64,000 nucleotides of DNA from the NCBI RefSeq assembly GCF_000715075.1, contig NC_134089.1, forward strand, positions 102,989,157-103,053,156, written 5' to 3'. This document shows, piece after piece, positions 3,031-60,006 of this stretch. Source of the stretch: Nicotiana tabacum. Its lineage: Eukaryota > Streptophyta > Magnoliopsida > Solanales > Solanaceae. How positions within the stretch are numbered: position 1 is the stretch's first letter; each line of letters starts with the position of its first letter. The position numbers were made by a program, and so were the translations under genes. Below the pieces are notes generated by a model. The model saw nothing but the letters and a program-made list of their open reading frames with translations, made no database searches and had not been told where the DNA came from.

Positions 3031-3357
3031 GTTTTCATTCATTATCTCTTCTTTGTTTTCGCCTTTTTGTGCGAGCAACTTGACATTGTTCTACGTTGTG
3101 TGACAACTGTTGCTTAATGCATGTTTCCCTTGACATTCTTAAGACTATTTGGAAGGTCTTTATTTGAAAGTCTTTTGGAGAGGTTTAGAAAGAAAGGTCA
3201 CATTAAGGCTCAAAATAGACTCAAGATGAAATGGTTGTATATTTACAATTATTGGAATCGACTCTTCATAAAAATAATTAAAAAAAAATCTACTCCAATT
3301 TCATATACTGGGGAATTTTTATTTTTGATTTGGTTAGACTGAGCCCTAGTGTAGAGC

Positions 3358-3399
3358 TGACTACATATCCTATAAAGGAATCAAGTGAAACGTCGTTCA
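3358..3399. repeat. Degenerate copy of the two-level hairpin motif
   Basis: Reads CTACATATCC, TATAA, AGGAATCAAG and ACGTCGTTC. The inner stem TCCT/AGGA is intact. The outer stem is partly decayed (CGTCG instead of CGTAG). It lies at the place equivalent to the better-preserved copy at 40901-40949 in the tandem unit. Confidence 0.55.
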
Positions 3400-6389: not shown

Positions 6390-7022
6390 TACTACTGGTC
6401 CCTTAGATCTTATGAAGTAATGATGTGTTGCCAGATTCACCACAAACCAATCACCTTAAACTTACTTGATAAGAGACAAGAAACGTGTTGGGATTAAGCA
6501 TTTTACAGATATGAATCACACTTAATAAGTCATGCTCCTAACATCAAACATGCTTTTGGAAGGCTTCAATGTTTCATTTCGGCTTATCAGGTTGCTACTT
6601 ATTGACGCTCTTATTTTCTTCTCTCTATTTTCTTGCTTTTCTTTTCACTCGCCTCATTTTGATCCTGCAATTTAGAACCGTTGAAGAATATTTCGATCGA
6701 ACCTTTTGGGGATTTCCTAAGTATCATGTCGCCGCATGAATCAGATCATTACGTAGTTCAGGAAAATCAGAAATAAAGTAAACAAATTAACTCTCGTTTT
6801 TTTTTACTCATATACAAATAACTCCAAAGAAAGTTCCTAATAAGGAAAATATTTTGGATTTTTTTTGTAAAAAGAAAGGCTTCAAAAGTAAGAATTTTTT
6901 TTTGGATTTAATTTTTTTATTGAATTCTTGAAAGAAAGACTTCTAAACAAAGATATTTTTCTTTTTTTTAAAAAAAAAGTTTTTTTTTGATTTTTTTTGA
7001 TTTTTTCATTTTTGAAAGAAAG
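6390..7022 (-). other. Ogre A 5' UTR, part left of the Tekay insertion
   Basis: Low-complexity sequence rich in poly-T/poly-A and GAAAGAAAG. It contains one copy of the two-level hairpin motif at 6711-6761. It continues at 20815 after the inserted chromovirus. No gene seen. Confidence 0.75.
6711..6761. repeat. Two-level hairpin motif, copy F
   Basis: Reads GATTTCCTAAGTATCATG, TCGCCG, CATGAATCAGATC and ACGTAGTTC. The inner stem TCATG/CATGA is perfect. The outer stem is weakened (CTAAG against CGTAG). It is equivalent in place to copy B at 44338-44390, just upstream of gag. Confidence 0.75.
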
Positions 7023-11580: not shown

Positions 11581-11589
11581 GGAAGCTCT

Positions 11590-13000: not shown

Positions 13001-13159
13001 TAAGGCTAATGCATCTGGCCTAGCCGGAAGGGCATAGAATCTGGCTGGAGCACCGGCTGGCTGGGCTCCACCTGACTGAGCAGTAGCTGGCTGACCTCTC
13101 CCTACCAGGCCTCCACCTCTAGGACAGCCCCTACCATCTTACCCTCCACCTCTAGGTGG

Positions 13160-14602: not shown

Positions 14603-14782
14603 CTGCGAGAGAATATAAGAGGGGAATTTTAATATACCGACCACTACACGATAGGAAATGAATAAAGAGTAGTTTTTCCTAATATCCTATAGTCTCTCGA
14701 AGATAAATACAGACGTCTACATACTGATCTACAAGACTCTATTAGGTTTTCCTATGACTTGTGAGACCTACGTGAACCTAGT

Positions 14783-14794
14783 GCTTTGATACCA
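14783..14794 (-). other. Primer-binding site of the Tekay-type element
   Basis: Minus-strand TGGTATCAAAGC, three bases inside the 5' LTR edge at 14798. It matches the complement of the 3' end of initiator tRNA-Met (TGGTATCAGAGC) with one change. Confidence 0.88.
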
Positions 14795-15279
14795 TGTTGT
14801 CACGACCCATTTCCATAATAGGTCATGATGGCGCCCGACACCATTGTCAGGTAAGCCAACATGGAAAAATATAATTAAGTTCTTATTTTACTTTTACCAA
14901 AAATTGGTGTAGCAGATTCTCAAATTAAAGTTAAGACCATAAGCGATAAATAATGAATCAAAAGATTATAAAACCCAAAAGCAAATATCTACCACTGTGT
15001 GTGCCAAGACCTGGTGTCACAAGTAACAAGCAACTAGTAGAATGTACGAAAAAGTAACTCTATCCTACTGTCTGAGATAGAATAGACAACAAAAGTAAGG
15101 AAAAGACTCCATCCGGATGCTTAGCGGCACAGGAAGGGAGCAGCTCACCGTGGAAGTCTCGGTGTATGAATCAGGGGCGCTCACCAAACTAGTAGCCAGA
15201 TGTACCTGTCTCAAATCATGTACAATTAAGTACATAAGTGTAGTATGAGTACATAAACAATATGTACCCAGTAAGTATC

Positions 15280-18200: not shown

Positions 18201-18763
18201 GCTCAAATCATCAAAACACCTCAAACAACATCAAATTACCCAAAACTCATCGAATTCAAGCCTAAATTTCCAAAAACTTCCGAAATACTCTTTCAATCAA
18301 AAACCCGACCAAACGATGTCCGGATAACCTGAAATTTCGCACACACATCACAAATGACATAATGAAGCTACAGCAACTCTCGGAATTCCATTCAGACTAC
18401 TATATCAAAATCTCGCCTATCAACCGGAATTCGCCGAAATACTAACTTCGCCAATTCAAGCCTAATTCTACATCGGACCTCCAAAACCAATTCCGATCAT
18501 ACTCCTAAGTCACAAATCACCTAACAGAGCTAACCAAATCATAAAAATTCCAATCCGAGATCAAATACACATAAGTCAAATTTTGGTCAAACCTTTCAAA
18601 TTTCAAGCTTCAACTGAGAACTGTTCTTCCAAATTCATTCTGATTAACCTGAAACCCAACACCAATGATTTAGATAAGTCATAATACACCAAATGGGGAA
18701 AGTAATGCCCAAGAACTGGCGAGCGAAGTGCAAAAGCTCAAAACGACCGGTCGGGTCGTTATA
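15280..18763 (-). mobile_element. Solo LTR of a second Tekay-like family, with perfect 5-bp target duplication
   Basis: Starts TGTCACGACCCAAACCCCG and ends GGTCGGGTCGTTATA (last CA mutated to TA). It is flanked by GTATC at 15275-15279 and 18764-18768. The host LTR reads GTACCCAGTAAGTATC before it and TTGTCTAATCTCG after it, which joins exactly as in the uninterrupted left LTR (7490-7510). There is no PBS, PPT or coding domain inside. It is therefore a solo LTR left by LTR-LTR recombination. It belongs to a different family from its host LTR. Confidence 0.93.
15840..16400. repeat. Irregular CCCTCGGGC repeat cluster inside the solo LTR
   Basis: The word GCCCCTCGGGC or a close variant recurs more than ten times, separated by 20-40 bp of AATATCA/AGAACAGT-type sequence. 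Later it changes to CAAGCCACCGCGTGGCAT and CCTCATATCACTC. CCCTCGGG is close to a palindrome. This is a degenerate tandem repeat in the U3-like part. No gene. Confidence 0.75.
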
Positions 18764-20814
18764 GTATCTTGTCTAATCTCGAAGAAGTAGAGACAAGAGG
18801 TCGACTCGATACTTACTAGGGTCAAATAATATGAGATGAATTTATAATAAGCAGGGATAGCACAAGTTATAAGCATTTAATATGCGTAGAATAACAGTTC
18901 CTTTCCAAATATTATCATGGGTGATATATATATATCATGCAGTTATGAAGTCCAGTCCACAGAGAAAACACTAAGCAAGAACATGCGCAAATAATACCAA
19001 GGGACGTACAGTCCGATCCAACATAAAAATAAATTGTGCACTGCCGAGGGTCGAACGGCTAGAACCATAGATGCATCTATTACCCCGCTCGCGAATCAAC
19101 CATGCGACGCGGTCAAACATAATTAAACACAGCAACAGGCAGACAACACTATATAACTCTAGAATAGTTATTCACAAGTATGTTAAATTTCTCTTTAAAA
19201 GGCCAAGGAAAATAAGGTTCCTATCACTAGTCTCATTTAACTTAATCAACATGGTTTATACGAATCCGAATTGAAGTATCAAGTTACAAGTATATCACAT
19301 AGAGCATGCTTATGGGTCCTAGACTACCTGGACTTAGCATAATAGTAGCTACGCACAGACTCTCGTCTCCTAGTGCGTACGTAGCCCCCACATATAATGG
19401 CAATTTATTCAATTATTACACCTATGGGGACAATTCCCTCTTACAAGGTTAGAAAGGAGACTCACCTCGCTCCAAAGTGCACTTCCAAATGCCAAGAACA
19501 AGTCCAAGCCCTTAATTTGGAGCCGAACAATCCCAAACTAGTTAAATGAAGTAAGAACTAGTTAATATAGGCTCACAAGATCGAATTCTAGCTATTTAGG
19601 TAATTTCCCAACAATTAACACAAGTTTCCTAAATTCCGACCCCGGGCCCGCGTGCCCAGATTCCGAGATTTTTCGAAACAAGATCAAATTCTAGCTATTT
19701 GAGCAATTTCCCAACCATTAACACAAGTTTACTCCATAACAAATTTCGTGGTTAAATCTAAGTTTTATTAAAACCCTAGGTTTTTGCTCTAACCCCATGA
19801 TTTCACCTTAACATTAGTGTTTAATCTACCTAAGACAATGATATTAGACTAGAAATAGGTAGCACACACTTACCTCAAGATGCTAGGTGAAGTTCTTCTC
19901 TCAAAAGCTACCAAATCGCCCAATGGAGGAGTGGAAATGTGATAAAATGACTTAGAATCCACATTAAATGAACCTCACTGCCCAGCGATTTCTGCATCTA
20001 CGGTCAGGGGACCGCATCTGTGAGAGATGGGCCGCACCTGCAAAAATGGGCCAAAGAGCTGGGACCACATCTTGGGAGCCGCTGCTACAGTTCCTGGCCT
20101 GTCCTGGGCCACTTTTGCGATGGCACGACCGCATCTGCGGTCTCGCACCTGCGGTCCACCAACCGCAGGTGCGGTTATGACAGAAGCAGCAAGCTTCAGC
20201 TCTTTCTAAAAATTTCCACTTCACTCGAACCTCGTCCGATTGATGCTCAGGGCTTCCTGGCCCCGCCCGAACATACCGACAAGTCCGAAATCACGAGACG
20301 GACCTACTCAAACCTTCGGAACACAAGAAACAACGCTAAATCTAGGAATCACCCCCTAAAACCAAATGAATCAAACATATGAACTTCAAGTTCTTAATTT
20401 TCCTCTAACGGTCCAAAACGCCCTTAAACTACTCGGATTGACACCAAATTTTACGGACAAGTCTTAAATGATACTTCAGACCTGTACCGGGCTTTAGAAC
20501 CAACATACGAGCCTGATACCCATGAAATCAATCATTACTTAGTTTCTTTAAATCCTTAAAACTTCAGATTAACAATTTCTAATAAAAATTCTTTTCTCGG
20601 GTTAGGAACCTCGAAATTCGATTCTGGGCATACGCCCAGGTCCCATATTTTCCCATGAAATCCTAAGGAATCAAATGGGTATATTTCACTCAAAACTATT
20701 CCAAATCTCGAACCAACCGCCCCCGCCAGTCGTAAATTAGCTAAAGCACATACGAGAAGTTTTATTTAGGGGACCAGGGTTCTAATAGGCAAAACGACCC
20801 GGTGGGTCGTTACA

Positions 20815-21869
20815 AAAAGTCTTCTAAAGAAGAAATAAAACATTTTTGAATTTTGAAAAATTTTCCTTTAATTGTGAAAGAAAAAAAATATTTTGGAATT
20901 CAATCCTTTTTTGGAATTTTTGAAAGAAGTTTTTTTTATTTATTTTCGAAAGAAATTTTTATTTTTTTGGTCTTTTTTTTCATTTTCTAAGGAAAGATTT
21001 CGAAGAAGGAATTAAGGAAAAGGAAAATATGTTATGATTTTTTTTTTGGAAAATTGGGGGCCGGAACCGATGAGGTTTTCCTACATATCTCACATCCGGT
21101 GAGAATCAGACCCGCGTAGTTCGGTAAAATTGGGTACTTTTCTCTTTTGATTTTTATGAAAATTAATCTTTACACCTCACACCAGACTATTACAAAATCC
21201 CTTTTTTAAAAAGGGTTATTTGCGCTAAACTAGGAGAATGACTTCCCTTTTTTTCTTCTCTTTTTTTAATAATTCCGCTATACTAATTTTCTTTTGCCGG
21301 TCGACATGCAAGTAAGCCGTCCAAATGATGTATCAATTAGCACATAAGTACACATGATGGTCTCAGAGAGGATACTTGTCTTATATGGACCCAGCCCCTA
21401 TGCCGAGTTTCGCTAAGTCAAATGCACGTGATGCATATAAAACGAACGTACTAGGGATATCCGACATGAGGTTTGTTCTTCTAGGTTTAAATCCTAGTGG
21501 AGAAGGTATCTAGACTGGCTTACTCGAGCGGACAACTAGAGCCGAGGAGGGTCAGCGTATTGGTAGCATTGCTTTCCGGCTTAACTGGTGGTGCTCCCTG
21601 CCTAAAAACATGTGTGACTAAAATCCTTCACTGGGTGACAAGCACCTCGGCTATCTCAAAGAAAGTGGGCTATGCCAAGAAAATGCCCAATTATTAATTT
21701 CAAGAAGACTCAGAGGGGGTGCATAAGAAGACAGTTTATATGTACAAATCAACAATATTGAATCAGTAAAAAGCGAACAGGCAACACAATAGACACAAAT
21801 AAATCACAATATTTACACAATTAATAAAGCTAAAAAAGTCAATATATACAAGCTCGAATTCTTATTATA
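20815..21869 (-). other. Ogre A 5' UTR, part right of the Tekay insertion
   Basis: It begins with AAAAGTCTTCTAAAGAAG, continuing the GAAAGAAAG text cut at 7022. It is poly-T rich, then contains the two-level hairpin motif (21073-21124), a segment with CAAATGCACGTGATGCA (21419-21435, equivalent to 46403-46419 in the tandem unit) and CGGACAACTAGAGCCGAGG. It ends at the PBS. No gene seen. Confidence 0.8.
21073..21124. repeat. Two-level hairpin motif, copy E
   Basis: Reads TTTTCCTACATAT, then CTCAC-ATCCG-GTGAG, then AATCAGACCC and GCGTAGTTCGG. The inner stem is a perfect 5 bp. The outer stem is CTAC/GTAG. It is equivalent in place to copy A at 45195-45249. Confidence 0.85.
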
Positions 21870-36726: not shown

Positions 36727-37146
36727 CGCTCTCTTTTCTTCTTTTCTTTCTCTAAAGCTAAATTATAAAAAATACTTAAACTATTATTAAGAACTAAATT
36801 AAGTTATAAAAGTGCAAATTAACTCTCAATAACAATTAACGCACAATTAAGTAATAATTAAGCATAAAATTGTATATTTGGACATTAAATGCTAAAAATG
36901 CAAACGATGCCTATTTTTGTAATTTTTAATTTTTTATAAACAAATTTAATTAGTAACAATTATAGAATTAAATCCTACATGCAAATGCGACATATTTTTG
37001 TATTTTTTTTTTATTAATTTAGCAAATAACAGACAAATACAAATAATTATTCAAAATATCACAAAATTGCACACCAAAGAAAAATCATTTTATTTTTGAA
37101 TTTTTTGGGAGTAATTCTCATATTGGGAAAAAATCACGTGCTTACA

Positions 37147-37164
37147 GCTGCCCCTCTTTGCCCG
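37147..37164 (-). other. Polypurine tract, unit 1
   Basis: Minus-strand CGGGCAAAGAGGGGCAGC directly precedes the LTR start TGTAAG. It is the expected primer for plus-strand DNA synthesis. Confidence 0.85.
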
Positions 37165-37273
37165 AAGACACGAAGGGTTTTCGTGCAAAGATAAAGCGAG
37201 CGATTTTTGCCCATCCGAGTACTCCGTTGAAGCATTTTTTTTTTTGAAAAAGATTTGACCGAACCTTTGCTTC

Positions 37274-37326
37274 AAAGGTTTCCTACATATCCTGGGCTAA
37301 ACAGGAATCAGGTCAATGTAGTTCGG
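37274..37326. repeat. Two-level hairpin motif, copy D
   Basis: Reads GGTTTCCTACATAT, CCTG-GGCTAAA-CAGG, AATCAGGTCA and ATGTAGTTCGG. The outer stem is CTACAT/ATGTAG, where other copies have CTACG/CGTAG. The inner stem is CCTG/CAGG. It lies about 130 bp inside the internal region. Confidence 0.88.
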
Positions 37327-37659
37327 AAACTTTGGTAGCTGGGACTACCGTTGGACTGCACTGTTACTGTTGTTGCATGCTATTACTACTGCTTACCGAT
37401 CTCCTTGTTACACCATGCTTAAAAGAAAACAAGAAGTTAAGCTATACTGCAATTTTTCTTGTTGCCTTGCTTTCTTGTCCGCTTGCATTTTTTCGGTGCT
37501 TTTCTTCTTTTTGACATATGCACTTGAGTTTGTGTTGTGACCTCTTGTTGCAACCTTCTGCTTCCCGGTGCCGGGGAATTTTATTGTTTCCTGCTGGGGA
37601 TTCCAATTTTAACCCTCTGTTTTATTGTCCTCTGACTTGATCTTGAAATGTATGCCTCT

Positions 37660-37933
37660 GTTGTATGGGCGGGCTCCCAACTTCAATACTTGAAAATTTA
37701 AAGACTGAAATGTATGCCTCTGTTATCTGGGCGGGCTCCCAACTTCAAATAAACAACTTTTGAAATAAACGTCATTCCTTTCTTCAAGCGGGCTCCTGAC
37801 TTCAACAACAACTTCTAAAATAAAATGCCTTTCCTCTCTTCAGGCGGGCTCCTGATTTCAACAACAACTTTGAAAATAATCGCCATTACTCTTTTCAGGC
37901 GGGCTCCTGACTTCAACAACTTTTAAAATAAAA
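37660..37933. repeat. GCGGGCTCC degenerate repeat, unit 1
   Basis: Five copies of GCGGGCTCC(C/T)(A/G)ACTTCA separated by 45-65 bp of TTTGAAATAAA-like sequence (first at about 37669, last at about 37899). It abuts the 30-bp array. Confidence 0.85.
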
Positions 37934-38837
37934 TCCTATTCGAGGGCGGATGAACCCGAAATATCCTATTCGAGGGCGGATGAACCCAAAATATCCTATT
38001 CGAGGGCGGATGAACCCAAAATATCCTATTCGAGGGCGGATGAACCCAAAATATCCTATTCGAGGGCGGATGAACCCAAAAATATCCTATTCGAGGGCGG
38101 ATGAACCCAAAATATCCTATTCGAGGGCGGATGAACCCAAAATATCCTATTCGAGGGCGGATGAACCCAAAAATATCCTATTCGAGGGCGGATGAACCCA
38201 AAATATCCTATTCGAGGGCGGATGATCCCATTATATCCTATTCGAGGGCGGATGAACCCAAAATATCCTATTCGAGGGCGGATGAACCCAAAATATCCTA
38301 TTCGAGGGCGGATGAACCCAAAATATCCTATTCGAGGGCGGATGAACCCAACAATATCCTATTCGAGGGCGGATGAACCCAAAATATCCTATTCGAGGGC
38401 GGATGAACCCAAAATATCCTATTCGAGGGCGGATGAACCCAACAATATCCTATTCGAGGGCGGATGAACCCAAAATATCCTATTCGAGGGCGGATGAACC
38501 CATTATATCCTATTCGAGGGCGGATGAACCCAAAAATATCCTATTCGAGGGCGGATGAACCCAAAATATCCTATTCGAGGGCGGATGATCCCATTATATC
38601 CTATTCGAGGGCGGATGAACCCAAAATATCCTATTCGAGGGCGGATGAACCCAAAATATCCTATTCGAGGGCGGATGAACCCATTATATCCTATTCGAGG
38701 GCGGATGAACCCAAAATATCATATTCGAGGGCGGAAGAACCCATTATATCCTATTCGAGGGCGGATGAACCCAACAATATCCTATTCGAGGGCGGATGAA
38801 CCCAACAATATCCTATTCGAGGGCGGATGATCCCATT
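37934..38837. repeat. 30-bp tandem array, about 30 copies (unit 1)
   Basis: The unit is TCCTATTCGAGGGCGGATGA followed by ACCCAAAATA. Variants differ mainly in the last bases: AAAAT, AAAAAT (31 bp), ACAAT (31 bp), CATTAT, and GATCCC for GAACCC. The variants recur in blocks, as in a higher-order structure. Because 30 is a multiple of three, plus-strand frames show a ten-residue repeat (NPKYPIRGRM); the 31-bp variants shift the frame, so a real protein is unlikely. Position between coding region and 3' LTR matches the hypervariable 3' region known in Ogre-type elements. Confidence 0.96.
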
Positions 38838-38991
38838 TTTATAAATCTTAGAATTGTCTTACCTCCGACTGTTTTTCTTCGAATCGTGATGTCTTGCTAT
38901 CTCTTAAAACTTGAATTGATTTCCTCGTTCTTCCGAGAAAATTTTCGACAATGGCAGAAAATCGTCTACCCCAGTTTTGGTGCTTTTCCTT

Positions 38992-39232
38992 GTTCTCCAG
39001 GTGGACGCCTGACTTCTGATATTTCAACTGTTCTTCCTTGTTCTCCAGGTGGATGCCTGATTGCTGATACTTCAACTGTTCTTCCTTATTCTCCAGGTGG
39101 ACGCCTGACTGCTAATACTTCCATTTCTCTTCCTTGTTCTCCAGGTGGACGCCTGATTTCTTCTTCAATTTTTCATCCTCATTCTCCAGGTGGACGCCTG
39201 ACTTCTTCTTCAATTTTTTATCCTCCGCTCTG
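38992..39232. repeat. 48-bp tandem repeat, five copies (unit 1)
   Basis: Each unit starts TTCTCCAGGTGGACGCCTGA and continues with a T-rich half (CTTCTGATATTTCAACTG, then TTCTTCCTTG). Later copies replace the second half with TTTCTTCTTCAATTTTTCATC. Confidence 0.92.
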
Positions 39233-40900
39233 CTTTGTTCTTGCTTGCTGGGGATAATTCCACTGTGGGAGTCTCCTTTCTTCCCCTCCTTCAAATTCAA
39301 TTTTTTTTTTTTTTAGAATTTATTTTCTCTCAACACTGCTGGGAATAAAAGTGTTATCTTCTTGGGATAACGTTGTTGAGGATAATGCTGCTGGGGAATT
39401 TTATCCCTTCAAATTTTTGCATCATTCTTCTGGAAGCTGCTGGGGATGATAATGGTTTTTGCTTTTCTGAGCACAAATGTCATCCCTTTGTTCTGTCTGC
39501 TGGGGAACAACTTCTTTTATTAAAACTTGTTATGCTGGGGGTAAAACTGGTTCAAAGACCACTTCCCTTGAGACTGGTGCTATATTCATTCTACCCCGAA
39601 TGGGTATCTGACTTCCAGAAAATTTTCCAAATGAAAGGAAATTTTTCTGCCCCAGTTTGACAGTCTCCCTTATGGCATGCATTTCTGTCATCAATGCCAC
39701 TTCCTTTACCTGTTTCAATTTAAACAAAATTTGTTAGTTTAAAATGCGGTGGTTGGTTATGATACTCCTACTGGGATGGTTTTTCCCTTTCTCCCTTCCC
39801 CACTCTATGTTGTCCGACCCTCTTGGAACTTGGTCGAAAATCTGTCGGGGATGCTCCTACATCTCGATGATCTACCGGGGGCCCTCTTGGAATTAGGTCC
39901 ACAATTTTCTCAACTGTTGTTTTCCTGTTTTTCTCCAACTTCCCTTGGAAATTTGGTCGTATTGGGATCTAGGCCCCTTTCATCATTTGGTCTTGCGACC
40001 AACTTCTTTTCTCTTTATCGCCTTGTCTTTGGCGTGTCCTATTCGCATTTTGCTTTGCATCATTTTGACAACTGGTAGTAAGCTCTGAAAATCCTTTTCA
40101 AAAACAAACTGCTGGGAAGGTAAAGTTTTTTAAACCAAGAAATGAAAGAGTGATGATTTCAAAAAATAGAAAAAAAGAAGAAGTCTTTCTGAACAAATGC
40201 TAGGGAAAAGGAAAGAAAAGAACTTATCTGAATGATATAACCGATTCCAACGATCATGTCGTGCATTCCGGATTAATCAACCCAGTCTATTTGTATCAAT
40301 CAACCTTCCAGACGGCCTCATGTTGCTGGGGATAAACAAGCACTCAACTCTTTGCCAAATGCGGATCCTTCCCGCCAATCTTGTCTTGTCGCCTCATAGT
40401 GCCCTTCGAGGGGTTTTCACTAATAAGACTCTCTCATTTCTCTCAACTCTCGTCGCCTTATGGTGCCTCTGAAGGTTTTCACCGATAAGACTTTCTTATT
40501 TTATTTTATTTTTCAGCTGAGGATTGGAGTGCTGCCGATATAACTCTCTCTGTTGGGGATTCTTTCGGCTATCAATTCATTTTCAGCTTATGATCTTCTT
40601 CTTTGCTGGGGATCAGAGTGTTATTCCCGACTTCCATTTGAATTGACTTAGCATTTCTCAGATACTGATCGGGAGGTCTTTTTTGGACATTAATAGGGGT
40701 TTTTGTGTATGGCTGAAAGTAGAAGGGGGTATCCAAAGTTCAAAAATAATTCTTAGGGGTAAAATAGTACAACTCTTGGAATCAAACTTTCTTGACAAAA
40801 TTACAAGCGCCAACTTCTGCCCCAGTTTTTCTTGCTTGAGGATTTTTATTTTGTCATACTATGTTACCTTATGCACACTATGTTACACTATGACCGAGCC
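39233..40900 (-). other. Internal 1 non-coding stretch with GCTGGGGA words
   Basis: No gene is supported. The word GCTGGGGA occurs at about 39246, 39391, 39440, 39510, 40324 and 40606 (plus 37591), with near matches such as GCTGGGGG, GCTGGGAA and GTTGGGGA. It includes a GGTTTTCACC pair (40389-40496). A plus-strand open frame at 39749-40078 is conserved in unit 2, but the two units are nearly identical everywhere, so that says little. Confidence 0.6.
40389..40496. repeat. Pair of GGTTTTCACC motifs (unit 1)
   Basis: First copy: CATAGTGCCCTTCGAGGGG (stem CCCT-TCG-AGGG), TTTTCACTAATAAGACTCTC. Second copy: TATGGTGCCTCTGAAGG (stem CCT-CTGA-AGG), TTTTCACCGATAAGACTTTC. Both are preceded by (G)TCGCCT(C/T)A. 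The same pair is at 2925-3030 and 54592-54700. Confidence 0.82.
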
Positions 40901-40949
40901 GTGAGGCGCCTACGTATCCTTCTTTGAGGAATCAGGTCCAACGTAGTTC
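40901..40949. repeat. Two-level hairpin motif, copy C
   Basis: Reads GAGGCGCCTACGTAT, CCTT-CTTT-GAGG, AATCAGGTCCA and ACGTAGTTCC. The outer stem is CTACGT/ACGTAG. The inner stem is TCCT/AGGA with an extra T-G pair. It lies just left of the pol stub. Confidence 0.86.
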
Positions 40950-41189
40950 CCATTCCTTTGTTTTTTGTTTTTTTTTCTTGACTTTTCTTTTGTTCTTATT
41001 ATCATTACTTTTTTCATTTTCATTACTGATTCCAAAAGAGGGGTATGAAAGTAAATAAGGCTCAAAAGGGGAAGCAAAGGTCAAAGTGTTTGGATAGAAG
41101 AAAGAATTGCCTCCGTCATTTCATTCTCTGATAAATGCTAAGTACAAACAAACAACAATTACAATTACCAGAAATCATAATATCTCTTA

Positions 41190-41700
41190 ACTGCGTCAGA
41201 ATTGATAGCCATGTCGACGCATTTCCCTTCGTTATCTGTGGATCATAAAGCGTCATCGGGCTTGCTCTATTTAGATTGCGATGATCAACACATACCTCGG
41301 ATTTTCCTTTTTTTTTTGGCACCACATTAGCCCACCAATCAGGATATCGAGCGGCCCGAATAACCTTAGTATTCAGCTGTTTGGTCACTTCTTCCTTAAT
41401 CTTCCCACTCACGTTGGTTTTGATCTTCCTGAATTTTGCTGGACGGGGGGTAATGCCGGGTCAGTGGGCAATTTTTGAACCACTAGATTGGTGCTTAAGC
41501 CTGGCATGTCGTCGTATGACCATGCAAAATGTTTTGAATTCAGTAAGTGCTTTGATTAGTTCTTACCTGATGTTTGGTTTCATGTGGATGCTTATCTTAG
41601 CTTCCCTGATGTCATCCGCATCCCCTAGATTGACGGCTTCCGTGTCATTTGAGTTGGGCTCTTTTCTTTTTTTTCAAATTGGCTCAACTCTCTGTTAATT
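41190..41700 (-). pseudogene. Pol stub: N-terminal edge of Ogre reverse transcriptase (unit 1)
   Basis: The minus-strand frame 41412-41116 reads KIKEEVTKQLNTKVIRAARY, then PDWWANVVPKKKGK and VCVDHRNLNRASP, the start of the Ty3/gypsy RT domain (EV...V.YP.W.ANVVPV.KK.GK.R.C.D.R.LN.A.P). Immediately afterwards, where the FPLP..D block and the catalytic motifs should follow, the sequence becomes unrelated. Upstream (41698-41420) the pre-RT linker (IREELIKALTEFKTF) is readable with a stop. The rest of RT, RNase H and integrase is absent from the unit, and no protease is seen between gag and here. This is an internal deletion shared by both units, so it predates their separation. Confidence 0.82.
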
Positions 41701-42188
41701 TTTCTGAAGGCTTCATCCTTATCGTATTCCGACTTATCATCACAATCTTGTACTATAAGTTCGAAATCAGATTGATTGATTTCTTTTTTAGACTAGGTTG
41801 AAGATCCGTCGTGCATGCCATGTCATTAGAACCAGTAGAAAGAGAACTGTTCAGAAGAGAAAAATAAGAAGAAAAATTAAAACAAAATAAGGAATGAGGA
41901 AAAAAACTTTCACTTTATTAAAATACGGGATAGCAAGGTTTCACACTTTGGTGAGCACAAGAAAGATCTGGATTACAACCCTGGAATAATCCAGACAACA
42001 AAAAAGAAAATCAGAGCCCACTACCAAGACTCCCTTCGTATAGGAAAAGGAGTAGCCATTCAATTGTTGATTTTTGCTTTCAACCCCACAAACTGTACAT
42101 CTGCCTCATTGGACCATTTTCCCAACACCATAACTGGCTTGTCATCCACCTTTTCCAACTATACCACCGTTTTCCCACTGGTTAACAT

Positions 42189-44051
42189 TTATTTTGAACC
42201 GACACAGATCATCATCACTGTTTGTGAGGGTTTCTTTAGCTTCCCTCCTTCGTGCATTAGCTCAATCATGTGGGTTTCAAGGTGTGCCGGCAACGGGTTC
42301 TGATTGATGTTGGGTGCCTCTGGTGTCTGAACCTCAATCTTGTTGGTGTCAATAAGATTCTGTACTGCATGTTTCAACTTCCAACATTTCTCGGTATCAT
42401 GTCCGAGAGCCCCCGAACAATACTCACAGCTTACCGAGTGGTCCATATTTTTGGGAAAGGGATTTGGAAATCTGGGCTCAACAGGACTCAACAAGCCTAA
42501 CTGCCTTAATTTGTGGAACACAACAGTATAGGTTTCCCCCAACTCAGTGAATGTTCTTTGTATTTTTTCATTTTTGAAAGCCTTATTTCCCCGGAAACCT
42601 TCCCCTGGAGGGTTCTTGTAGGCTCTTGGTGGTGAATAGGTGTTTTGCAGTGGTGTATGTGTGTTCTGGGGAGCCGGTGCGCGCCATTGCGAGCGAACCG
42701 GAGGCTGAGTATATGTTTGGGCTTGGTTAATAGAAGAATGGGGCTCTGAAGGGTGATAGTAGTGTTGGGATGAATTGTGGTGGTAAGTTGATTGGCGAGG
42801 TCGTTGTTGATTATAGTAAGGCGGTGAACCTCTGGGTCCCGACCAAATTCCTGAATCAACTACCGCTGCTTCCTCTCTCTTCTTTCTTCCGATTTCTCCT
42901 ACCCCGCCTTGAATAGCTTGAGTAGCTGCCTTAATTGCTGAATAGCTCATAATTTTATTTGTCTTGAGGCCTTCTTCCACCATACCTCCCATCTTCACTA
43001 CCTCGTTGAATGATTTCCCTACCGCTGAAACCAAATGGGCATAGTAAGTTGGTTCCAAGGCTTGGAGGAAGTAGTCTACCATTTCACTCTCCTTCATAGG
43101 AGGATCCACTCTTGCTACCTGTTCTCTCCACCGGAAGCCATACTCTCTGAAACTTTCATTGTGTTTCTTCTCAAATTTTGTCAAAGATAGTCGATCTGGG
43201 ATGATTTCCAGATTGTATTGGAAATGGTGTGCGAATGCCTGTGCTAGGTCATCCCAGGTGTACCATCTCCCATGGTCCTGGCGTGTATACCACTCCAAAG
43301 CTGATCCGCTTAAACTTTGACTGAAGTAAGCCATCAATAATTCGTCCTTTCCCCCAGCTCCTCGCATCTTGCTGCAGAAACCCCTTAAGTGGGTTACTGG
43401 GTCGCCGTGCCCATTGTATAGGTCAAATTTAGGCATCTTGAAACCAACTGGTAATTGTACATTTGGGAACAAGCACAAATCCTTGTAAGCTACACTGACT
43501 TGCCCACCTAATCCCCGCATGTCTCGGAATGATTGTTCTAGACTTTTGACCTTCCTGAACATTTCTTCTTGTTCAACATTTTTGGCTAGCTTGTCAATTT
43601 CGGTTGGGATATCAAAACGAGGAGCAGTTGAATGGATTTCGGAGGCTTTGAGGGTGGGCTCCGGGGGGTAATATTGGTTGTCCTGGGCCTGGAATGTAGG
43701 CTCACTAGGAGATTTGTGGAATGTAGCCGGGGGAGGTGCTACGAAAACAGGAGTCACAGGTGGAGGAAAGTATGAAACTGGTTTTGGAGGTGGAGACTGC
43801 GGTGTTTGAAAGGTGGTTCCTCGGTAGTGTTGGTAAATGGGGAAATTTGGGGATAATTCAGTGGTAATATTATCCTGAGTTTGGGTCATTGATGGAGCAG
43901 GGTTAGTTGGGTAAGATAGGGGTAACTGCCCTGTAGACCAAGCCTGGTACATTTCAGCCATTTGCTGTTTGAGTTTAAACATCTCTTCTTTCATTTTCCC
44001 GACATCCATCTCCTCTAGCTCAATACCTGTGTCAACATCTGGGATAGACAT
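42189..44051 (-). CDS. Ogre gag, intact open frame, 620 aa (unit 1)
   Basis: Gag builds the virus-like particle and packages RNA. The start is the ATG at 44051, the first after the leader; the same start is kept in unit 2. An acidic N-terminus (MSIPDVDTGIELEEMDVG) is followed by a short coiled-coil-like MKEEMFKLKQQMAEMYQAW, then a Pro-rich linker (about residues 60-150) and the retrotransposon gag domain. That domain has PKFDLYNGHGDPVTHLRGF, MAYFSQSLSGSALEWY, FAHHFQYNLEIIPDR and ESFREYGFRWREQVARVDPP, roughly residues 215-360. A zinc knuckle of spacing CX2CX5HX4C (CEYCSGALGHDTEKC) lies at about 538-552. It ends VGSK-stop with no protease behind it. It is the only long intact frame in the window. 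It is probably expressed from the LTR as a gag-only element. Confidence 0.92.
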   Translation of the reverse strand: MSIPDVDTGIELEEMDVGKMKEEMFKLKQQMAEMYQAWSTGQLPLSYPTNPAPSMTQTQDNITTELSPNFPIYQHYRGTTFQTPQSPPPKPVSYFPPPVTPVFVAPPPATFHKSPSEPTFQAQDNQYYPPEPTLKASEIHSTAPRFDIPTEIDKLAKNVEQEEMFRKVKSLEQSFRDMRGLGGQVSVAYKDLCLFPNVQLPVGFKMPKFDLYNGHGDPVTHLRGFCSKMRGAGGKDELLMAYFSQSLSGSALEWYTRQDHGRWYTWDDLAQAFAHHFQYNLEIIPDRLSLTKFEKKHNESFREYGFRWREQVARVDPPMKESEMVDYFLQALEPTYYAHLVSAVGKSFNEVVKMGGMVEEGLKTNKIMSYSAIKAATQAIQGGVGEIGRKKREEAAVVDSGIWSGPRGSPPYYNQQRPRQSTYHHNSSQHYYHPSEPHSSINQAQTYTQPPVRSQWRAPAPQNTHTPLQNTYSPPRAYKNPPGEGFRGNKAFKNEKIQRTFTELGETYTVVFHKLRQLGLLSPVEPRFPNPFPKNMDHSVSCEYCSGALGHDTEKCWKLKHAVQNLIDTNKIEVQTPEAPNINQNPLPAHLETHMIELMHEGGKLKKPSQTVMMICVGSK

Positions 44052-44337
44052 ACTTTCGGGTATTCGTCCTTTTGATCTCGTGTGATAATGATAATATGCT
44101 AGTATACTCTTTAGAGAAACTAACTGCTTGAATTCTGAAAATGAACAAACTTGTTAGTTTTGAGAATTTAACACATATATAATTACACGTTGAGATGCAA
44201 TGCTCCTAGACAAATATCCCCTTTCTATTATGCATTTGCTCGACTGCTTGTGTCGTCCCAATTTTCTTGAAAATTTTATTCACTTATATTTTATTTTATT
44301 TTATTATATATATTTTATTGTGGTGGTCGAATCTTAT

Positions 44338-44390
44338 GGAGATTGCCTACGTATCATGACCCCGCATGAATCAGACCTTGCGTAGTTCGG
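44338..44390. repeat. Two-level hairpin motif, copy B
   Basis: Reads GGAGATTGCCTACGTAT, CATG-ACCCCG-CATG, AATCAGACCTT and GCGTAGTTCGG. Outer stem CTACG/CGTAG, inner stem TCATG/CATGA. It lies about 290 bp upstream of the gag start. Confidence 0.88.
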
Positions 44391-45003
44391 ACCAATAAAA
44401 GATGAACAATACTAATCATTTTTTTTTCAATTTTCATATTAAAACAAACTGGGTTTCAATGGTTTGAAGATTACCTACAAACGTGAAAATCAAACAACCC
44501 ACATATTTTAATCAAAAGATTTATACTCTCAAAACAAAAAAGGCCAGCTTCCTTTCCCCGTTTGACAAATGCAACCAAATGGCTATTTTTGCAAATGTGG
44601 CCCCTTCCAAATCTCACATGAATTTTGAGGCCGGGGAGGATTATTTTGACACTTTACAAACTTGTCCGTTCTTTTACGAAAATAACCTTTCGACAACTGA
44701 AAGATACTCTAAGGCTATTTCGGCAAGAACCGTTTAAGACGCGGTCGAAGCTGGCTCGACTTATTTTGACCAAAAATCCAAACGGTATTCACCTGACCAC
44801 TAACTCTTTTTTTTTTTCAAATTACAATAAAAATCGGGTGTTGCAAACACGGCCCTTCAGTGCCTCGGGGACGAAGATTTTTAAGGCTGTGTGGGTCGAT
44901 TGGACCAAATCTTAAGAAATGACCCAAAGGTGGTTATTTATGCAAAGTCAGCCTTCCGGCGTCCCTTTCGGGAACATTCGGCTATGTCTTAATAAAACAG
45001 CGT

Positions 45004-45187
45004 CACCCGACTTCTTTATGACAAAATTAAAATTTGACACATTATTTTTGGCTATATTTTAGCAAAAGGGGAGGTTGGACACCACCCGACTTATTTATGA
45101 CAAGATTAAAATTTTGACACGTTTTTTATTTATTTATTTATTTATTGGTTTTTGGCTATTTTAGCAAAAGGGGGGGGGGGGGGGGTT
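45004..45187. repeat. 79-bp tandem duplication and poly-G run
   Basis: CACCCGACTTCTTTATGACA at 45004 recurs (one change) at 45083, each followed by TTAAAATTTTGACAC and TTTTAGCAAAAGG. The second copy ends in about 16 G in unit 1, but only about 10 in unit 2 (near 59371-59380). Confidence 0.85.
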
Positions 45188-45194
45188 GGACCCG

Positions 45195-45249
45195 ATGAGG
45201 GTTGCCTACGTATCTCACATCCGGTGAGAATCAAACCCGCGTAGTTCGG
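45195..45249. repeat. Two-level hairpin motif, copy A
   Basis: Reads GGGTTGCCTACGTAT, CTCAC-ATCCG-GTGAG, AATCAAACCC and GCGTAGTTCGG. Outer stem CTACG/CGTAG, inner stem TCTCAC/GTGAGA. It is the best-paired copy. Confidence 0.9.
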
Positions 45250-45857: not shown

Positions 45858-46847
45858 CAACAAATAATAAAACCACTTTCAACGCGACTCTTTTTATTTT
45901 ATTATTTTGAATTTTTCAGAAACGAATAAAAAAACTACTTTAAAAGTAAAACTCTTTTTCATTGTCATTTTCAGGGGAAGACAAACTATTTTCCCTTTTA
46001 TATATTTTTTTTATTTTTTATTTTTAAAAAAAATAAAATATATTTATTTTTTTTTTTTTGAAAAATAAGACAGAACAACGATTTTTTTTTCTTTCTATTT
46101 TTTCTTTGGTTTTAATAAAACAAACTAATAAAACATTTTTTTTCATTTTCTCAAAATTTCGGCAGAGTTTTGACAGTATTTGGGCATTGGTTTTTTTTTT
46201 CAAAAATAAACAGTCAATTCCCTAACCGCTATTTCTTTTTTTTCAATTTGAAAATATTATTCATGATATTCAAAAGTCAGTCAACACACAAATCCGGATC
46301 AAATAAATGCGCAAGTAGCAGCAAGTAAGATGCATCAGGATGGTCATTTTTTTGGTACACCTGTCCTAGACAGACCCAACCCATGTGTTGAGTCTCCAAA
46401 GTCAAATGCACGTGATGCAAACAATCACTCCTACTAGGGATCCGGCATGAAGCTGAGTTATTCTAAGTGAAAAAACCTGAGGCATATTGATCTAGCCCTG
46501 GCTTACCCAAACGGACAGTTTGAGCCGAAGCGGGGGCAACGTACCGAGAGCACGAAAGTCTACCCGGCCTAGTTACTTGTCCCAACTTCGTCTTATTTGG
46601 TATGACTTTAACAGAAAGGTGGGCCACGCGCACGTGTGCACCATAAATTTAGAAGACTCAGAAAGAAGGGGGTTTCGTAGCAGTTGTATATATTAATAAT
46701 TCAAATAATATTAAAGCGGTAAAAGTGTCATTTAGCACATTGGGCATATATCATGTAAAAAAAATCAGATAATAAATAAAACCAACTATAACAATTATTT
46801 TAAGCTCGAATTCTTGAACCCTGAACTAGTGGTTCTGGGTTGTTGAT

Positions 46848-46865
46848 TCCCCAGCAGAGTCGCCA
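46848..46865 (-). other. Primer-binding site, unit 1
   Basis: Minus-strand TGGCGACTCTGCTGGGGA, 4 bp (GCTC) from the LTR edge at 46870. It fits the tRNA-Arg-type PBS of Ogre elements. Confidence 0.92.
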
Positions 46866-51643: not shown

Positions 51644-51751
51644 AAGACACGAAGGGTTTTCGTGCAAAGATAAAGCGAGCGATTTTTGCCCATCTGAGTA
51701 CTCCGTTGAAGCATTTTTTTTTTGAAAAAGATTTGACCGAACCTTTGCTTC

Positions 51752-51804
51752 AAAGGTTTCCTACATATCCTGGGCTAAACAGGAATCAGGTCAATGTAGT
51801 TCGG
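51752..51804. repeat. Two-level hairpin motif, copy D of unit 2
   Basis: Same sequence as 37274-37326, with CCTG/CAGG and CTACAT/ATGTAG stems intact. Confidence 0.88.
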
Positions 51805-52139: not shown

Positions 52140-53430
52140 TTGTATGGGCGGGCTCCCAACTTCAATACTTGAAAATTTAATGACTGAAATGTATGCCTCT
52201 GTTATCTGGGCGGGCTCCCAACTTCAAATAAACAACTTTTGAAATAAACATCATTCCTTTCTTCAAGCGGGCTCATGACTTCAACAACAACTTCTAAAAT
52301 AAAATGCCTTTCCTCTCTTCAGGCGGGCTCCTGATTTCAACAACAACTTTGAAAATAATGGCCATTACTCTTTTCAGGCGGGCTCCTGACTTCAATAACT
52401 TTTAAAATAAAATCCTATTCGAGGGCGGATGAACCCAAAATATCCTATTCGAGGACGGATGAACCCAACAATATCCTATTCGAGGGCGGATGAACCAAAA
52501 ATATCCTATTCGAGGGCGGATGAACCCAAAATATCCTATTCGAGGGCGGATGAACCCAACAATATCCTATTCGAGGGCGGATGAACCCAAAATATCCTAT
52601 TCGAGGGCGGATGAACCCATTATATCCTATTCGAGGGCGGATGAACCCAAAAATATCCTATTCGAGGGCGGATGAACCCAAAATATCCTATTCGAGGGCG
52701 GATGAACCCATTATATCCTATTCGAGGGCGGATGAACCCAAAAATATCCTATTCGAGGGCGGATGAACCCAAAATATCCTATTCGAGGGCGGATGATCCC
52801 ATTATATCCTATTCGAGGGCGGATGAACCCAAAATATCCTATTCGAGGGCGGATGAACCCAAAATATCCTATTCGAGGGCGGATGAACCCATTATATCCT
52901 ATTCGAGGGCGGATGAACCCAAAATATCCTATTCGAGGGCGGATGAACCCATTATATCCTATTCGAGGGCGGATGAACCCAACAATATCCTATTCGAGGG
53001 CGGATGAACCCAACAATATCCTATTCGAGGGCGGATGATCCCATTTTCAAAATCTTAGAATTGTCTTACCTCCGACTGTTTTTCTTCGAATCGTGATGTC
53101 TTGCTATCTCTTAAAACTTGAATTGATTTCCTCGTTCTTCCGAGAAAATTTTCGACAATGGCAGAAAATCTTCTGCCCCAGTTTTGGTGCTTTTCCTTGT
53201 TCTCCAGGTGGACGCCTAACTTCTGATATTTCAACTGTTCTTCCTTGTTCTGTGGATACCTGATTGCTGATACTTCAACTGTTCTTCCTTGTTCTCCAGG
53301 TGGATGCCTGATTGCTGATACTTCAATTGTTCTTCCTTGTTCTCCAGGTGGACGCCTGACTGCTAATACTTCCATTTCTCTTCCTTGTTCTCCAGGTGGA
53401 CGCCTGATTTCTTCTTCAATTTTTCATCCT
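52140..53430. repeat. Three tandem arrays of unit 2 (about 60, 30 and 48 bp)
   Basis: GCGGGCTCC copies (about 52148-52400), the 30-bp array with about 21 copies (52413-53045, against about 30 in unit 1) and the 48-bp TTCTCCAGGTGG repeats (about 53195-53425). The last part of the 30-bp array shows the same order of variants as unit 1 (CATTAT, AAAAAT, GATCCC, ACAAT). The difference is therefore a block loss or gain at the other end, not random turnover. Confidence 0.93.
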
Positions 53431-55320
53431 CCGCTCTGCTTTGTTCTTGCTTGCTGGGGATAATACCACTGTGGGAGTCTCCTTTCTTCCCCTCCTTCAA
53501 ATTCAATTTTTTTTTTCAGAATTTATTTTCTCTCAACACTGTTGGGGATAAAAGTGTTATATTCTTGGGATAACGTTGTTGAGGATAATGCTGCTGGGGA
53601 ATTTTATCCCTTCAAATTGATGCATCATTCTTCTGGAAGCTGCTGGGGATGATAATGGTTTTTGCTTTTCTGAGCACAAATGTCATCCCTTTGTTCTGTC
53701 TGCTGGGGAACAACTTCTTTTATTAAAACTTGTTATGCTGGGGGTAAAACTGGTTCAAAGACCACTTCCCTTGAGACTGGTGCTATATTCATTCTACCCC
53801 GAATGGGTATCTGACTTCCAGAAAATTTTCCAAATGAAAGGAAAATTTTCTGCCCCAGTTTGACAGTCTCCCTTATGGCATGCATTTCTGTCATCAATGC
53901 CACTTCCTTTACCTGTTTCAATTTAAACAAAATTTGTTAGTTTAAAACGCGGTGGTTGGTTATGATACTCCTACTGGGATGGTTTTTCCCTTTCTCCCTT
54001 CCCCACTCTATGTTGTCCGACCCTCTTGGAACTTGGTCGAAAATCTGTCGGGGATGCTCCTACATCTCGATGATCTACCGGGGGCCCTCTTGGAATTAGG
54101 TCCACAATTTTCTCAACTGTTGTTTTCCTGTTTTTCTCCAACTTTCCTTGGAAATTTGGTCGTATTGGGATCTAGGCCCCTTTCATCATTTGGTCTTGCG
54201 ACCAACTTCTTTTCTCTTTATCGCCTTGTCTTTGGCGTGTCCTATTCGCATTTTGCTTTGCATCATTTTGGCAACTGGTAGTAAGCTCTGAAAATTCTTT
54301 TCAAAAACAAACTGCTGGGAAGGTAAAGTTTTTTAAACCAAGAAATGAAAAAGTGATGATTTCAAAAAATAGAAAAAAAGAAGAAGTCTTTCTGAACAAA
54401 TGCTAGGGAAAAGGAAAGAAAAGAACTTATCAGAATGATATAACCGATTCCAACGATCATGTCGTGCATTTCGGATTAATCAACCCAGTCTATTTGTATC
54501 AATCAACCTTCCAGACGGCCTCATGTTGCTGGGGATAAACAAGCACTCAACTCTTTGCCAAATGCGGATCCTTCCCGCCAATCTTGTCTTGTCGCCTCAT
54601 AGTGCCCTTCGAGGGGTTTTCACTAATAAGACTCTCTCATTTCTCTCAACTCTCGTCGCCTTATGGTGCCTCTGAAGGTTTTCACCGATAAGACTTTCTT
54701 ATTTTATTTTATTTTTCAGCTGAGGATTGGAGTGCTGCCGATATAACTCTCTCTGTTGGGGATTCTTTCGGCTATCAATTCATTTTCAGCTTATGATCTT
54801 CTTCTTTGCTGGGGATCAGAGTGTTATTCCCGACTTCCATTTGAATTGACTTAGCATTTCTCAGATACTGATCGGGAGGTCTTTTTTGGACATTAATAGG
54901 GGTTTTTGTGTATGGCTGAAAGTAGAAGAGGGTATCCAAAGTTCAAAAATAATTCTTAGGGGTAAAATAGTACAACTCTTGGAATCAAACTTTCTTGACA
55001 AAATTACAAGCGCCAACTTCTGCCCCAGTTTTTCTTGCTCGAGGATTTTTATTTTGTCACACTATGTTACCTTATGCACACTATGTTACACTATGACCGA
55101 GCTGTGAGGCGCCTACGTATCCTTCTTTGAGAAATCAGGTCCAACGTAGTTCCCATTCCTTTGTTTTTTGTTTTTTTTCTTGACTTTTCTTTTGTTCTTA
55201 TTATCATTACTTTTTTCATTTTCATTACTGATTCCAAAAGAGGGGTATGAAAGAGTAAATAAGGCTCAAAAGGGGAAGCAAAGGTCAAAGTGTTTGGATA
55301 GAAGAAAGAATTGCCTCCGT
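53431..55320 (-). other. Internal 2 non-coding stretch
   Basis: Counterpart of 39233-41115, with scattered base changes only. It includes GCTGGGGA words, the GGTTTTCACC pair (54592-54700) and hairpin copy C (55103-55152). In copy C the inner stem is damaged (GAGAAATC instead of GAGGAATC). No gene seen. Confidence 0.75.
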
Positions 55321-58253: not shown

Positions 58254-60006
58254 ACTTTCGGGTATTCGTCCTTTTGATCTCGTGTGATAATGATAATATG
58301 CCAGTATACTCTTTAGAGAAACTAACTGCTTGAATTCTGAAAATGAACAAACTTGTTAGTTTTGAGAATTTAACACATATATAATTACACGTTGAGATGC
58401 AATGCTCCTAGACAAATATCCCCTTTCTATTATGCATTTGCTCGACTGCTTGTGTCGTCCCAGTTTTCTTGAAAATTTTATTCACTTATATTTTATTTTA
58501 TTTTATTATATATATTTTATTGTGGTGGTCGAATCTTATAGAGATTGCCTACGTATCATGACCCCGCATGAATCAGACCTTGCGTAGTTCGGACCAATAA
58601 AAGATGAACAATACTAATCATTTTTTTTTCAATTTTCATATTAAAACAAACTGGGTTTCAATGGTTTGAAGATTACCTACAAACTTGAAAATCAAACAAC
58701 CCACATATTTTAATCAAAAGATTTATACTCTCAAAACAAAAAAGGCCAGCTTCCTTTCCCCGTTTGACAAATGCAACCAAACGACTATTTTTGCAAATGT
58801 GGCCCCTTCCAAATCTCACATGAATTTTGAGGCCAGGGAGGATTATTTTGACACTTTACAAACTTGTCCGTTCTTTTACGAAAATAACCTTTCGACAACT
58901 GAAAGATACTCTAAGGCTATTTCGGCAAGAACCGTTTAAGACGCGGTCGAAGCTGGCTCGACTTATTTTGACCAAAAATCCAAACGGTATTCACTTGACC
59001 ACTAACTCTTTTTTTTTTCAAATTACAATAAAAATCGGGTGTTGCAAACACGGCCCTTCAGTGCCTCGGGGACGAAGATTTTTAAGGCTGTGTGGGTCGA
59101 TTGGACCAAATCTTAAGAAATGACCCAAAGGTGGTTATTTATGCAAAGTCAGCCTTCCGGCGTCCCTTTCGGGAACATTCGGCTATGTCTTGATAAAACA
59201 GCGTCACCCGACTTCTTTATGACAAAATTAAAATTTGACATATTATTTTTGGCTATATTTTAGCAAAAGGGGAGGTTGGACACCACCCGACTTATTTATG
59301 ACAAGATTAAAATTTTGACACGTTTTTTATTTATTTATTTATTTATTGGTTTTTGGCTATTTTAGCAAAAAGGGGGGGGGGGTTGGACCCGATGAGGGTT
59401 GCCTACGTATCTCACATCCGGTGAGAATCAAACCCGCGTAGTTCGGGCAGGTCATGATTAAAGTAAGTAAACTAATTTTAAATTATTATTATTTTGAATT
59501 TGTAAAAGAACTGCTTTGAAAGAAGAAATGAAGTATATATATTTTTTTTGAATTTTTGATTGATTTTCTTTTTGAAAGAAAGACTTCTAAGAATTCCTTT
59601 TCTTTTGATTTGAACTTTGAGAATTTCAAAAGTAAAAGGAAGATTTTTTTTTGTTATATTTTTTTTTATTCTAAGAAGAAAGAAAATATTTTTTTGGAAT
59701 TTTACCTTTAATAAAAGAAATGCTTTCTAAAAAAATATTTTTTTTGAATTTTGAATTTTCTTTTCAATTTTTAAAGAAGAAGGAAAATATTTTCGAATTT
59801 GCAACAAATAAATATATATATTTTATTTTTTTTAATAATTAAAAAGACTTTCTTAAAGAAGTCAATAATGGAAAATATTTTTGGATTTTTGTTTTTTGAA
59901 AATTGGGAGTCTAAAAAAAACTTTTCTAGACTTTTTGGCAGGACAAATATTTTTGCAACAAATAAAGATATATTTACATTTTTGGAAATAAAGAAAAACT
60001 TTTTGG

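Follow-up and report, generated by a model that had tools for sequence, protein, structure and literature searches.

Why should one retrotransposon carry the same small motif at four places, with arms that differ from copy to copy and still remain complementary? This question is raised by a 64-kb stretch of the Nicotiana tabacum genome, here called the window, which contains a tandem array of the form LTR-internal-LTR-internal-LTR (LTR, long terminal repeat) made of two elements, B and C, together with a diverged element, A, which is split by another retroelement. Judged by their sequence, these host elements are Ogre/Tat-like Ty3/gypsy retrotransposons; a Ty3/gypsy gag is present (Retrotrans_gag match), and tandem repeats occupy the 3' untranslated part, as 30-bp and 48-bp arrays between the third and fourth motif copies in B and C and as 39-bp arrays in A. 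Hypervariable tandem repeats in the 3' untranslated region have been described for Tat/Ogre elements (PMC7004042). An earlier note on this DNA had pointed out a hairpin of two levels with changing arms, and had proposed either a structured RNA or a protein-binding DNA element. We find the same motif on one strand and at recurring positions, with covariation of two helices and of a pseudoknot (PK) within this genome, and we conclude that it is very probably a conserved RNA structure.

A covariance model of two helices, P1 and P2, was built from the eleven named copies, and the window was scanned with filters off. The eleven copies score 47.7-68.7 bits and the next window match scores 9.2; since the copies are the training set of the model, only the gap below 47.7 bits is informative. 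The motif is present at each of the eleven places given by the earlier note. Because the gag open reading frame (ORF) of B lies on the minus strand (Table 1), this is the sense strand of the elements, and the letters quoted earlier have to be reverse-complemented to give the RNA: the motif was real and its orientation has to be turned round. All eleven copies lie on this coding strand and are 58-68 nt long. B and C carry four copies each (H1 to H4) and A carries H1, H2 and H3, its H4 presumably lying beyond the left end of the window. As far as it is visible, all three elements share the order H1, H2, gag, H3, tandem repeats, H4, and none of the eleven copies falls inside a gag ORF or an LTR. 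They sit at module borders, as had been claimed, namely in the leader, before gag, after the pol stub and before the polypurine tract, the last at a distance of 166-167 nt.

Table 1. Motif copies and other features of the window (coordinates of the window; helix strands written as RNA, 5' strand/3' strand).
Feature	Coordinates	Strand	Description
B_H1	45184..45247	-	5' leader, 1618 nt after PBS-like (primer-binding-site-like) site; P1 CUACG/CGUAG; PK GGUU/AACC; P2 UCUCAC/GUGAGA; P3 ACCC/GGGU
B_H2	44325..44388	-	235 nt before gag open frame start; PK GGUC/GACC; P2 UCAUG/CAUGA; P3 AAUCU/AGAUU
B_H3	40892..40949	-	after pol stub; PK GACC/GGUC; P2 UCCU/AGGA; P3 GCC/GGC
B_H4	37257..37324	-	167 nt before polypurine tract; P1 CUACAU/AUGUAG; PK GACC/GGUC; P2 UCCUG/CAGGA; P3 AACCUUUG/CAAAGGUU
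C_H1	59381..59444	-	
C_H2	58527..58590	-	
C_H3	55095..55152	-	compared with B_H3, U-G at one P2 pair and loss of one P3 pair
C_H4	51735..51802	-	
A_H1	21059..21122	-	diverged Ogre A; PK GGUC/GGCC; P3 AACC/GGUU
A_H2	6695..6759	-	PK GAUC/GAUC; P2 UCAUG/CAUGA
A_H3	3337..3398	-	PK CACU/AGUC (3 of 4 pairs); P2 UCCU/AGGA; P3 AGCUCUA/UAGGGCU
gag ORF of B	42189..44153	-	654 aa, Retrotrans_gag (Pfam); fixes sense strand
Polypurine tract and start of 3' LTR, element B	37146..37157	-	
PBS-like sequence, element B	46857..46865	-	
Tandem repeats (30, 48, 39 bp)	37864-38919, 52283-53045, 38953-39228, 171-1666		

From 5' to 3' the motif consists of GAA, the 5' strand of P1, the 5' strand of the pseudoknot, UGAU, the hairpin P2, a single U, the 3' strand of P1, a short spacer, the hairpin P3, one or two nucleotides including a C, and the 3' strand of the pseudoknot. 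In P1, CUACG(U/C) pairs with ACGUAG. In the window copies P2 is a hairpin of the form UC..GA, with a single U-G in C_H3, and its further pairs vary by position. The pseudoknot pairs the four bases before the invariant UGAU with four bases lying 1-2 nt after P3. Both stems of the two-level hairpin are thus present, and the further hairpin P3 and the pseudoknot had been overlooked. The inner arms pair in every copy, as reported earlier. The outer arms do change together in H4 (CUACAU/AUGUAG), but all three Ogre A copies have a mismatch or a G-U there, and the sixth pair is C-A in B H1 and H2. The trinucleotide CGG, held to be constant after GTAGTTC, is lacking in both H3 copies and in two of the three Ogre A copies.

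The pairing in the window exceeds that of shuffled letters, so that the possibility of stems pairing no better than shuffled copies is excluded. For P2, the letters enclosed by UC/GA were shuffled 100,000 times; the value observed was never reached for the seven distinct window copies, and was reached 17 times for the four B copies alone. For P1 and P2 together, over nine distinct rows, 90.2% of cells were paired against 81.2% after shuffling and the covariation score was 0.301 against 0.135, neither being reached in 500 shuffles; pairs altered on both sides were weakly above shuffles (26/500), and the number of further pair types was not above them (412/500). P3 likewise pairs above shuffled expectation in the window copies, with a best-stem sum over the seven distinct copies of 34.0, compared with a shuffled mean of 15.2 (0/2000 shuffles reach it). 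In the same seven copies the pseudoknot strands listed in Table 1 form 27 of 28 pairs. With the register fixed, a count of 27 is attained by 4 of the 5040 exact permutations, one of the four being the true order; with registers searched anew, none of 3000 random permutations and none of 3000 shuffles did.

The pseudoknot was derived from these seven copies and written down before any genome copy was seen. Copies from the 4.0-Gb N. tabacum genome, the one plant genome in which covariation and further copies were sought, were obtained by DNA similarity, by patterns fixing the 5' half, and from hand-picked places. Altogether 113 distinct copies were parsed, nine with window text and 104 new, and the 100 new copies left after four without a P3 parse had been dropped were used for the test. 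In these, 357 of 400 pseudoknot cells are paired and 78 copies are fully paired, compared with 0-2 fully paired copies at each of four shifted registers (offsets 4-7). With one copy per class (n=50), 157 of 200 cells are paired and 28 copies fully so, a value that none of 5000 permutations reached (maximum 155), with the register free at 1 or 2 nt after P3 in the permutations too and with the 5' strand fixed as GRYY by the search patterns. Cleaner evidence than the permutation test comes from swaps within one position, position types having been assigned by script rules: among 22 H2-type copies, 17 have GGUC/GACC and three GAUC/GAUC, and among 49 H3-type copies, 22 have GACC/GGUC and 15 GACU/AGUC, each crossed combination occurring once.

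The two named stems also covary in a larger set of copies, a set limited to one genome and analysed without R-scape. P2 beats 2000 of 2000 permutations in the full set of 113 distinct copies, to which those of the window belong, and again in 32 cluster representatives. For P1, loci picked by the 5' strand CUACAU (n=30) have AUGUAG opposite in 22 cases and ACGUAG in four; those picked by CUACGU (n=30) have AUGUAG in one and ACGUAG in 26; and hand-picked CUACAC loci (n=19) have AUGUAG in 11 and ACGUAG in five. Two other pairings were considered and rejected. A closing stem between the bases before GAAC and those after P3 is formed in only some of the copies, and P3 and the pseudoknot would compete with it. 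Pairing of P1 strands between copies, as in dimerisation, is disfavoured by the H4-type change, which fits P1 to its own partner and not to other copies.

Throughout the genome, exact matches to three disjoint half-motif patterns number 10,879+10,620, 2,051+1,861 and 3,887+3,791, giving a sum of 33,089 5' halves that were not checked singly, with the CUACGC form of H1 and H2 outside the count; reversed-pattern controls gave no match in the same genome for any pattern. The recurring places are the leader, the region before gag, that after the integrase ORF and that before the polypurine tract, and, in genome copies typed by position, each place keeps its own version of the motif. All 30 loci retrieved with H1 contained H2 as well; these loci are near-identical to one another, and B and C of the window are among them. 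Where a locus held two copies, both were on one strand (34/34, of which 30 are these H1/H2 loci of one family). Ten ORFs from motif-bearing genome loci, the window elements themselves not included, were submitted to Pfam. Seven of these lie upstream of H3-type copies, and integrase domains were found in six of the seven, whose ends lie 129-302 nt ahead of the motif; neither the seventh nor the three ORFs from H4-type loci had a Pfam match. The suggestion of a role restricted to a gag-only RNA is consequently too narrow. A sequence like a polypurine tract follows the motif in 21 of 30 CUACAU loci, at 146-150 nt in 18 and at 167-173 nt in three, with four different LTR starts seen by eye among the 21, and no such sequence was found within 600 nt in 30 CUACGU loci.

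At H1 and H2 the motif is also conserved relative to its surroundings. Between A and B, 46 of 50 positions are identical at H1 against 12-36 of 50 in surrounding windows, and 43 of 50 at H2 against 12-34; in the leader, H1 is the strongest similarity of the two elements (69 nt, 89.9%, E 2e-21). Over 34 H2 segments, ungapped identity averages 0.99 in the motif columns, 0.84-0.95 in the 40 nt before the motif and about 0.5 further upstream, and drops between 60 and 110 nt, where it goes from 0.91 to 0.69. In the H2 copies, the sequence following the 3' pseudoknot strand differs between elements. Elements with and without an intact pol keep the motif. The pol stub of B before H3, which resembles reverse transcriptase by eye only, had no Pfam match, and neither B nor C has an ORF of at least 80 aa between this stub and the tandem repeats; the four copies are kept in both nevertheless, and this therefore fits a site needed in cis.

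Ogre A and B have other similar segments. A second non-coding island (40389-40505 in B and 2928-3039 in A; 73.7% over 114 nt, E 3e-12) lies about 360-445 nt after H3 and has an internal repeat, an island in the leader (46359-46534 and 21374-21551) is 70.6% identical over 180 nt, and a block of about 110 nt (41002-41114), after the pol stub and shortly before H3, is 75% identical to Ogre A.

Several results weigh against a conserved pseudoknotted RNA. A wrong pseudoknot register (offset 4) also beat 2000 of 2000 permutations, with 42% of cells paired; permutations ignore the relatedness of copies, which therefore inflates the test. The pseudoknot is incomplete in 22 of the 100 new copies, of which some appear to reflect misparsed P3 hairpins and others decay, and it is weakest in the H4 type, where 20 of 33 copies are fully paired. 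P1 is weaker than P2 in the 32 cluster representatives (33/2000 permutations), and its fifth pair, over 113 copies, is G-C in 61, A-U in 36, A-C in 11, G-U in four and A-G in one, the 11 A-C cases being contrary to pairing. In the genome copies P3 was selected for its pairing, so that its pairing there is not independent evidence. Nested minimum free energies are no better than those of shuffled sequences (sense z from -1.66 to +1.05, seven copies), and unconstrained folding forms P1 in five of the 11 window copies. At H3, A and B share 34 of 50 positions against 41-44 of 50 just upstream, so that the motif falls below the preceding 150 nt. Finally, Ogre elements are reported to have an intron between gag-pro and reverse transcriptase; none of the four copies lies between the two, so by themselves the copies do not mark unspliced RNA.

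Taking both sides together, we infer that the fold forms and acts as RNA, presenting near-constant bases to a factor acting in trans, and action in cis on the element RNA is likely. In this model, helices whose letters change together would hold the near-constant GAA, UGAU, the single U and the C before the pseudoknot, as expected if these bases, in a given shape, were what a trans factor recognises. The best guess for this factor would be the element's own Gag, and several sites per RNA might then nominate the element RNA for packaging or assembly. Gag is favoured because, according to PMC4974528, the 5' RNA pseudoknot of Ty1, likewise located in an LTR-retrotransposon RNA, contains a major binding site of a C-terminal Gag fragment, and its disruption hampers retrotransposition. 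However, that pseudoknot belongs to a yeast element and lies at the RNA 5' end, and it could not be shown to act in encapsidation (same source). By this analogy, Gag recognition or packaging is a tentative proposal, a little short of an even chance. We lean slightly towards a cis-acting pseudoknotted RNA element of Ogre/Tat-type transcripts, with the Gag guess included, as the best explanation.

The principal alternative is a nuclear export or RNA-stabilising element, in which the pseudoknot would recruit host export factors and allow the intron-containing Ogre RNA to leave the nucleus. It draws support from the literature (PMC12786077) and finds a model in the transport element of mouse MusD, which is also a pseudoknotted cis-acting RNA of an LTR retroelement in which structure matters more than sequence. 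On the other hand, MusD has a kissing loop of its own and demonstrated transport, and four-fold repetition is not described for it in the available portion of the source (PMC3362945); here there are four small structures, and no kissing loop is seen. We regard this role as possible but unlikely.

Still less likely is a block to 5'-3' exonucleases or scanning ribosomes, which would leave stable RNAs starting at module borders. Compact pseudoknots with covarying pseudoknot strands and near-constant loop bases do this from intergenic or untranslated positions in plant viruses (PMC6299227, PMC10520033), and the exonuclease-resistant class xrRNA_D is, like our motif, a small pseudoknotted RNA with covarying stems, but it is viral and its exonuclease block is demonstrated (PMC6299227). 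Its layout also seems different: here the covarying pseudoknot strand lies directly before UGAU, between P1 and P2, and not in the apical loop of P2. Moreover, no Rfam family matched at gathering score in the window (4227 families); at relaxed thresholds, two copies gave one opposite-strand match each (E 3 and 1.1).

Ribozymes of the hepatitis delta virus (HDV) type have the strand order P1a, pseudoknot strand, hairpin, P1b, hairpin, pseudoknot strand. This order equals that of our motif, but HDV-like ribozymes are self-cleaving and are known in non-LTR elements (PMC3774820). Compared with the HDV consensus, no P1.1 or catalytic-core pattern was seen by eye, and the C and pseudoknot strand RRYC that follow P3 seem to fit a CNRA-like core in B_H1 only.

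A service to reverse transcription, for instance with H4 positioning or exposing the polypurine tract, is about as doubtful as the exonuclease block, or slightly more so. It agrees with the spacing of 146-173 nt kept in 21 of 30 CUACAU loci and with the stem-loop proposed at the polypurine tract of Sireviruses (PMC2829016), but it leaves H1, H2 and H3 unexplained, AGAGGGG occurring on the sense strand of the window only at the two polypurine tracts and at 11465.

A DNA-level reading, for which the earlier note allowed, would be an inverted-repeat site, for instance one with a pair of ACGT cores to which bZIP factors bind; it appears improbable. Many window copies do hold TACGTA and ACGTAG, and the palindromic repeated motifs of Sireviruses, which are similarly non-coding and dyad-symmetric with arms differing between plant retrotransposon families, have been compared with transcription-factor sites. 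These motifs, however, are short palindromes in the LTRs and before ENV of Ty1/copia elements, are read as DNA sites, and come without a reported pseudoknot in the part of PMC2829016 available. In our case the ACGT core is lost on both sides in 22 of 30 CUACAU loci, the window LTRs lack the motif, and a pseudoknot has no obvious meaning in duplex DNA. Furthermore, sense-strand G-U cells exceed A-C cells by 57 to 21 over all copies (P2 21:8, PK 36:13) and by 21 to 11 in cluster representatives (P2 7:5, PK 14:6), the pseudoknot part being biased by a register chosen to maximise pairing, G-U included. Of the two possibilities raised earlier, the RNA element is the one supported, on the covariation of both named stems, P3, the pseudoknot, the single strand and the recurring positions. 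A functionless self-spreading mini-repeat whose arms are kept complementary by intrastrand template switching, a process able to correct short inverted repeats, is very improbable given the same order in Ogre A and B, the recurring positions with their specific versions and the single strand of the two-copy loci, mostly from one family, and arm correction would not make a pseudoknot.

Searches outside this genome gave no relative. The best named matches of the B gag protein are from Nicotiana, the two top matches being metagenome records. Three IMG/VR stretches retrieved by gag included no relative, and of the motif patterns one had no match in IMG/VR and another had 77 stretches, of which ten passed a loose look (two mismatches) for CGTAGTTC behind the match; all ten were judged chance. 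Eight of them (L019, L023, L041, L060, L064, L071, L076 and L077) have nearly the same text, loosely resemble both motif ends over a short stretch, and are probably one phage coding stretch. GTDB genomes (one pattern) and further IMG/VR patterns yielded 33 stretches with no second motif half by eye, and plasmids gave no blastn match. No description of the element was found in the open-licence PMC literature, to which the search was confined. Strings like the motif may occur in repeats of legumes and other plants. The string CCTACGTATC occurs in a potato paper (PMC11397162; a full-text letter match).

Some further features of the host elements were noted. B and C form a tandem array with a common LTR (32565-64000), with a unit spacing of about 14.1-14.5 kb and main matches 97.5-98.8% identical, which suggests unequal recombination. 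A second PBS-like string, GTGGCGACTC, lies inside LTR ends at 46968, 61194, 22015, 32666 and 31404, and in three of these five cases it is followed, at distances of 103, 103 and 128 nt, by a PBS-like site. Inserted in the leader of Ogre A is a different LTR retroelement (7023-20655, with LTR-like repeats and a protease-like ORF at 12251-13138), in which the covariance model found no motif copy above 9.2 bits.

To our knowledge, little is known of the signals by which plant Ty3/gypsy elements direct packaging, export and translation, and for Ty1 and Ty3, too, such signals lack a clear definition (PMC4974528). We give even odds to the reading that Ogre/Tat elements contain a hitherto undescribed fold in four versions, each specific to its position (leader, pre-gag, post-integrase and before the polypurine tract), which diverged families within one genome have conserved and which amounts to tens of thousands of copies. 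If this is true, the fold would rank with the commonest structured RNA motifs of a plant genome, and its versions would be addressed marks along the element RNA, read by one trans factor or by four different ones. Because the strands of this small fold are known, its natural variants many and its positions recurrent, short RNAs and reporters could be used to test such signals directly. Annotation may benefit as well, since the copy before the polypurine tract marks the 3' end of the element and the post-integrase copy marks the end of pol.

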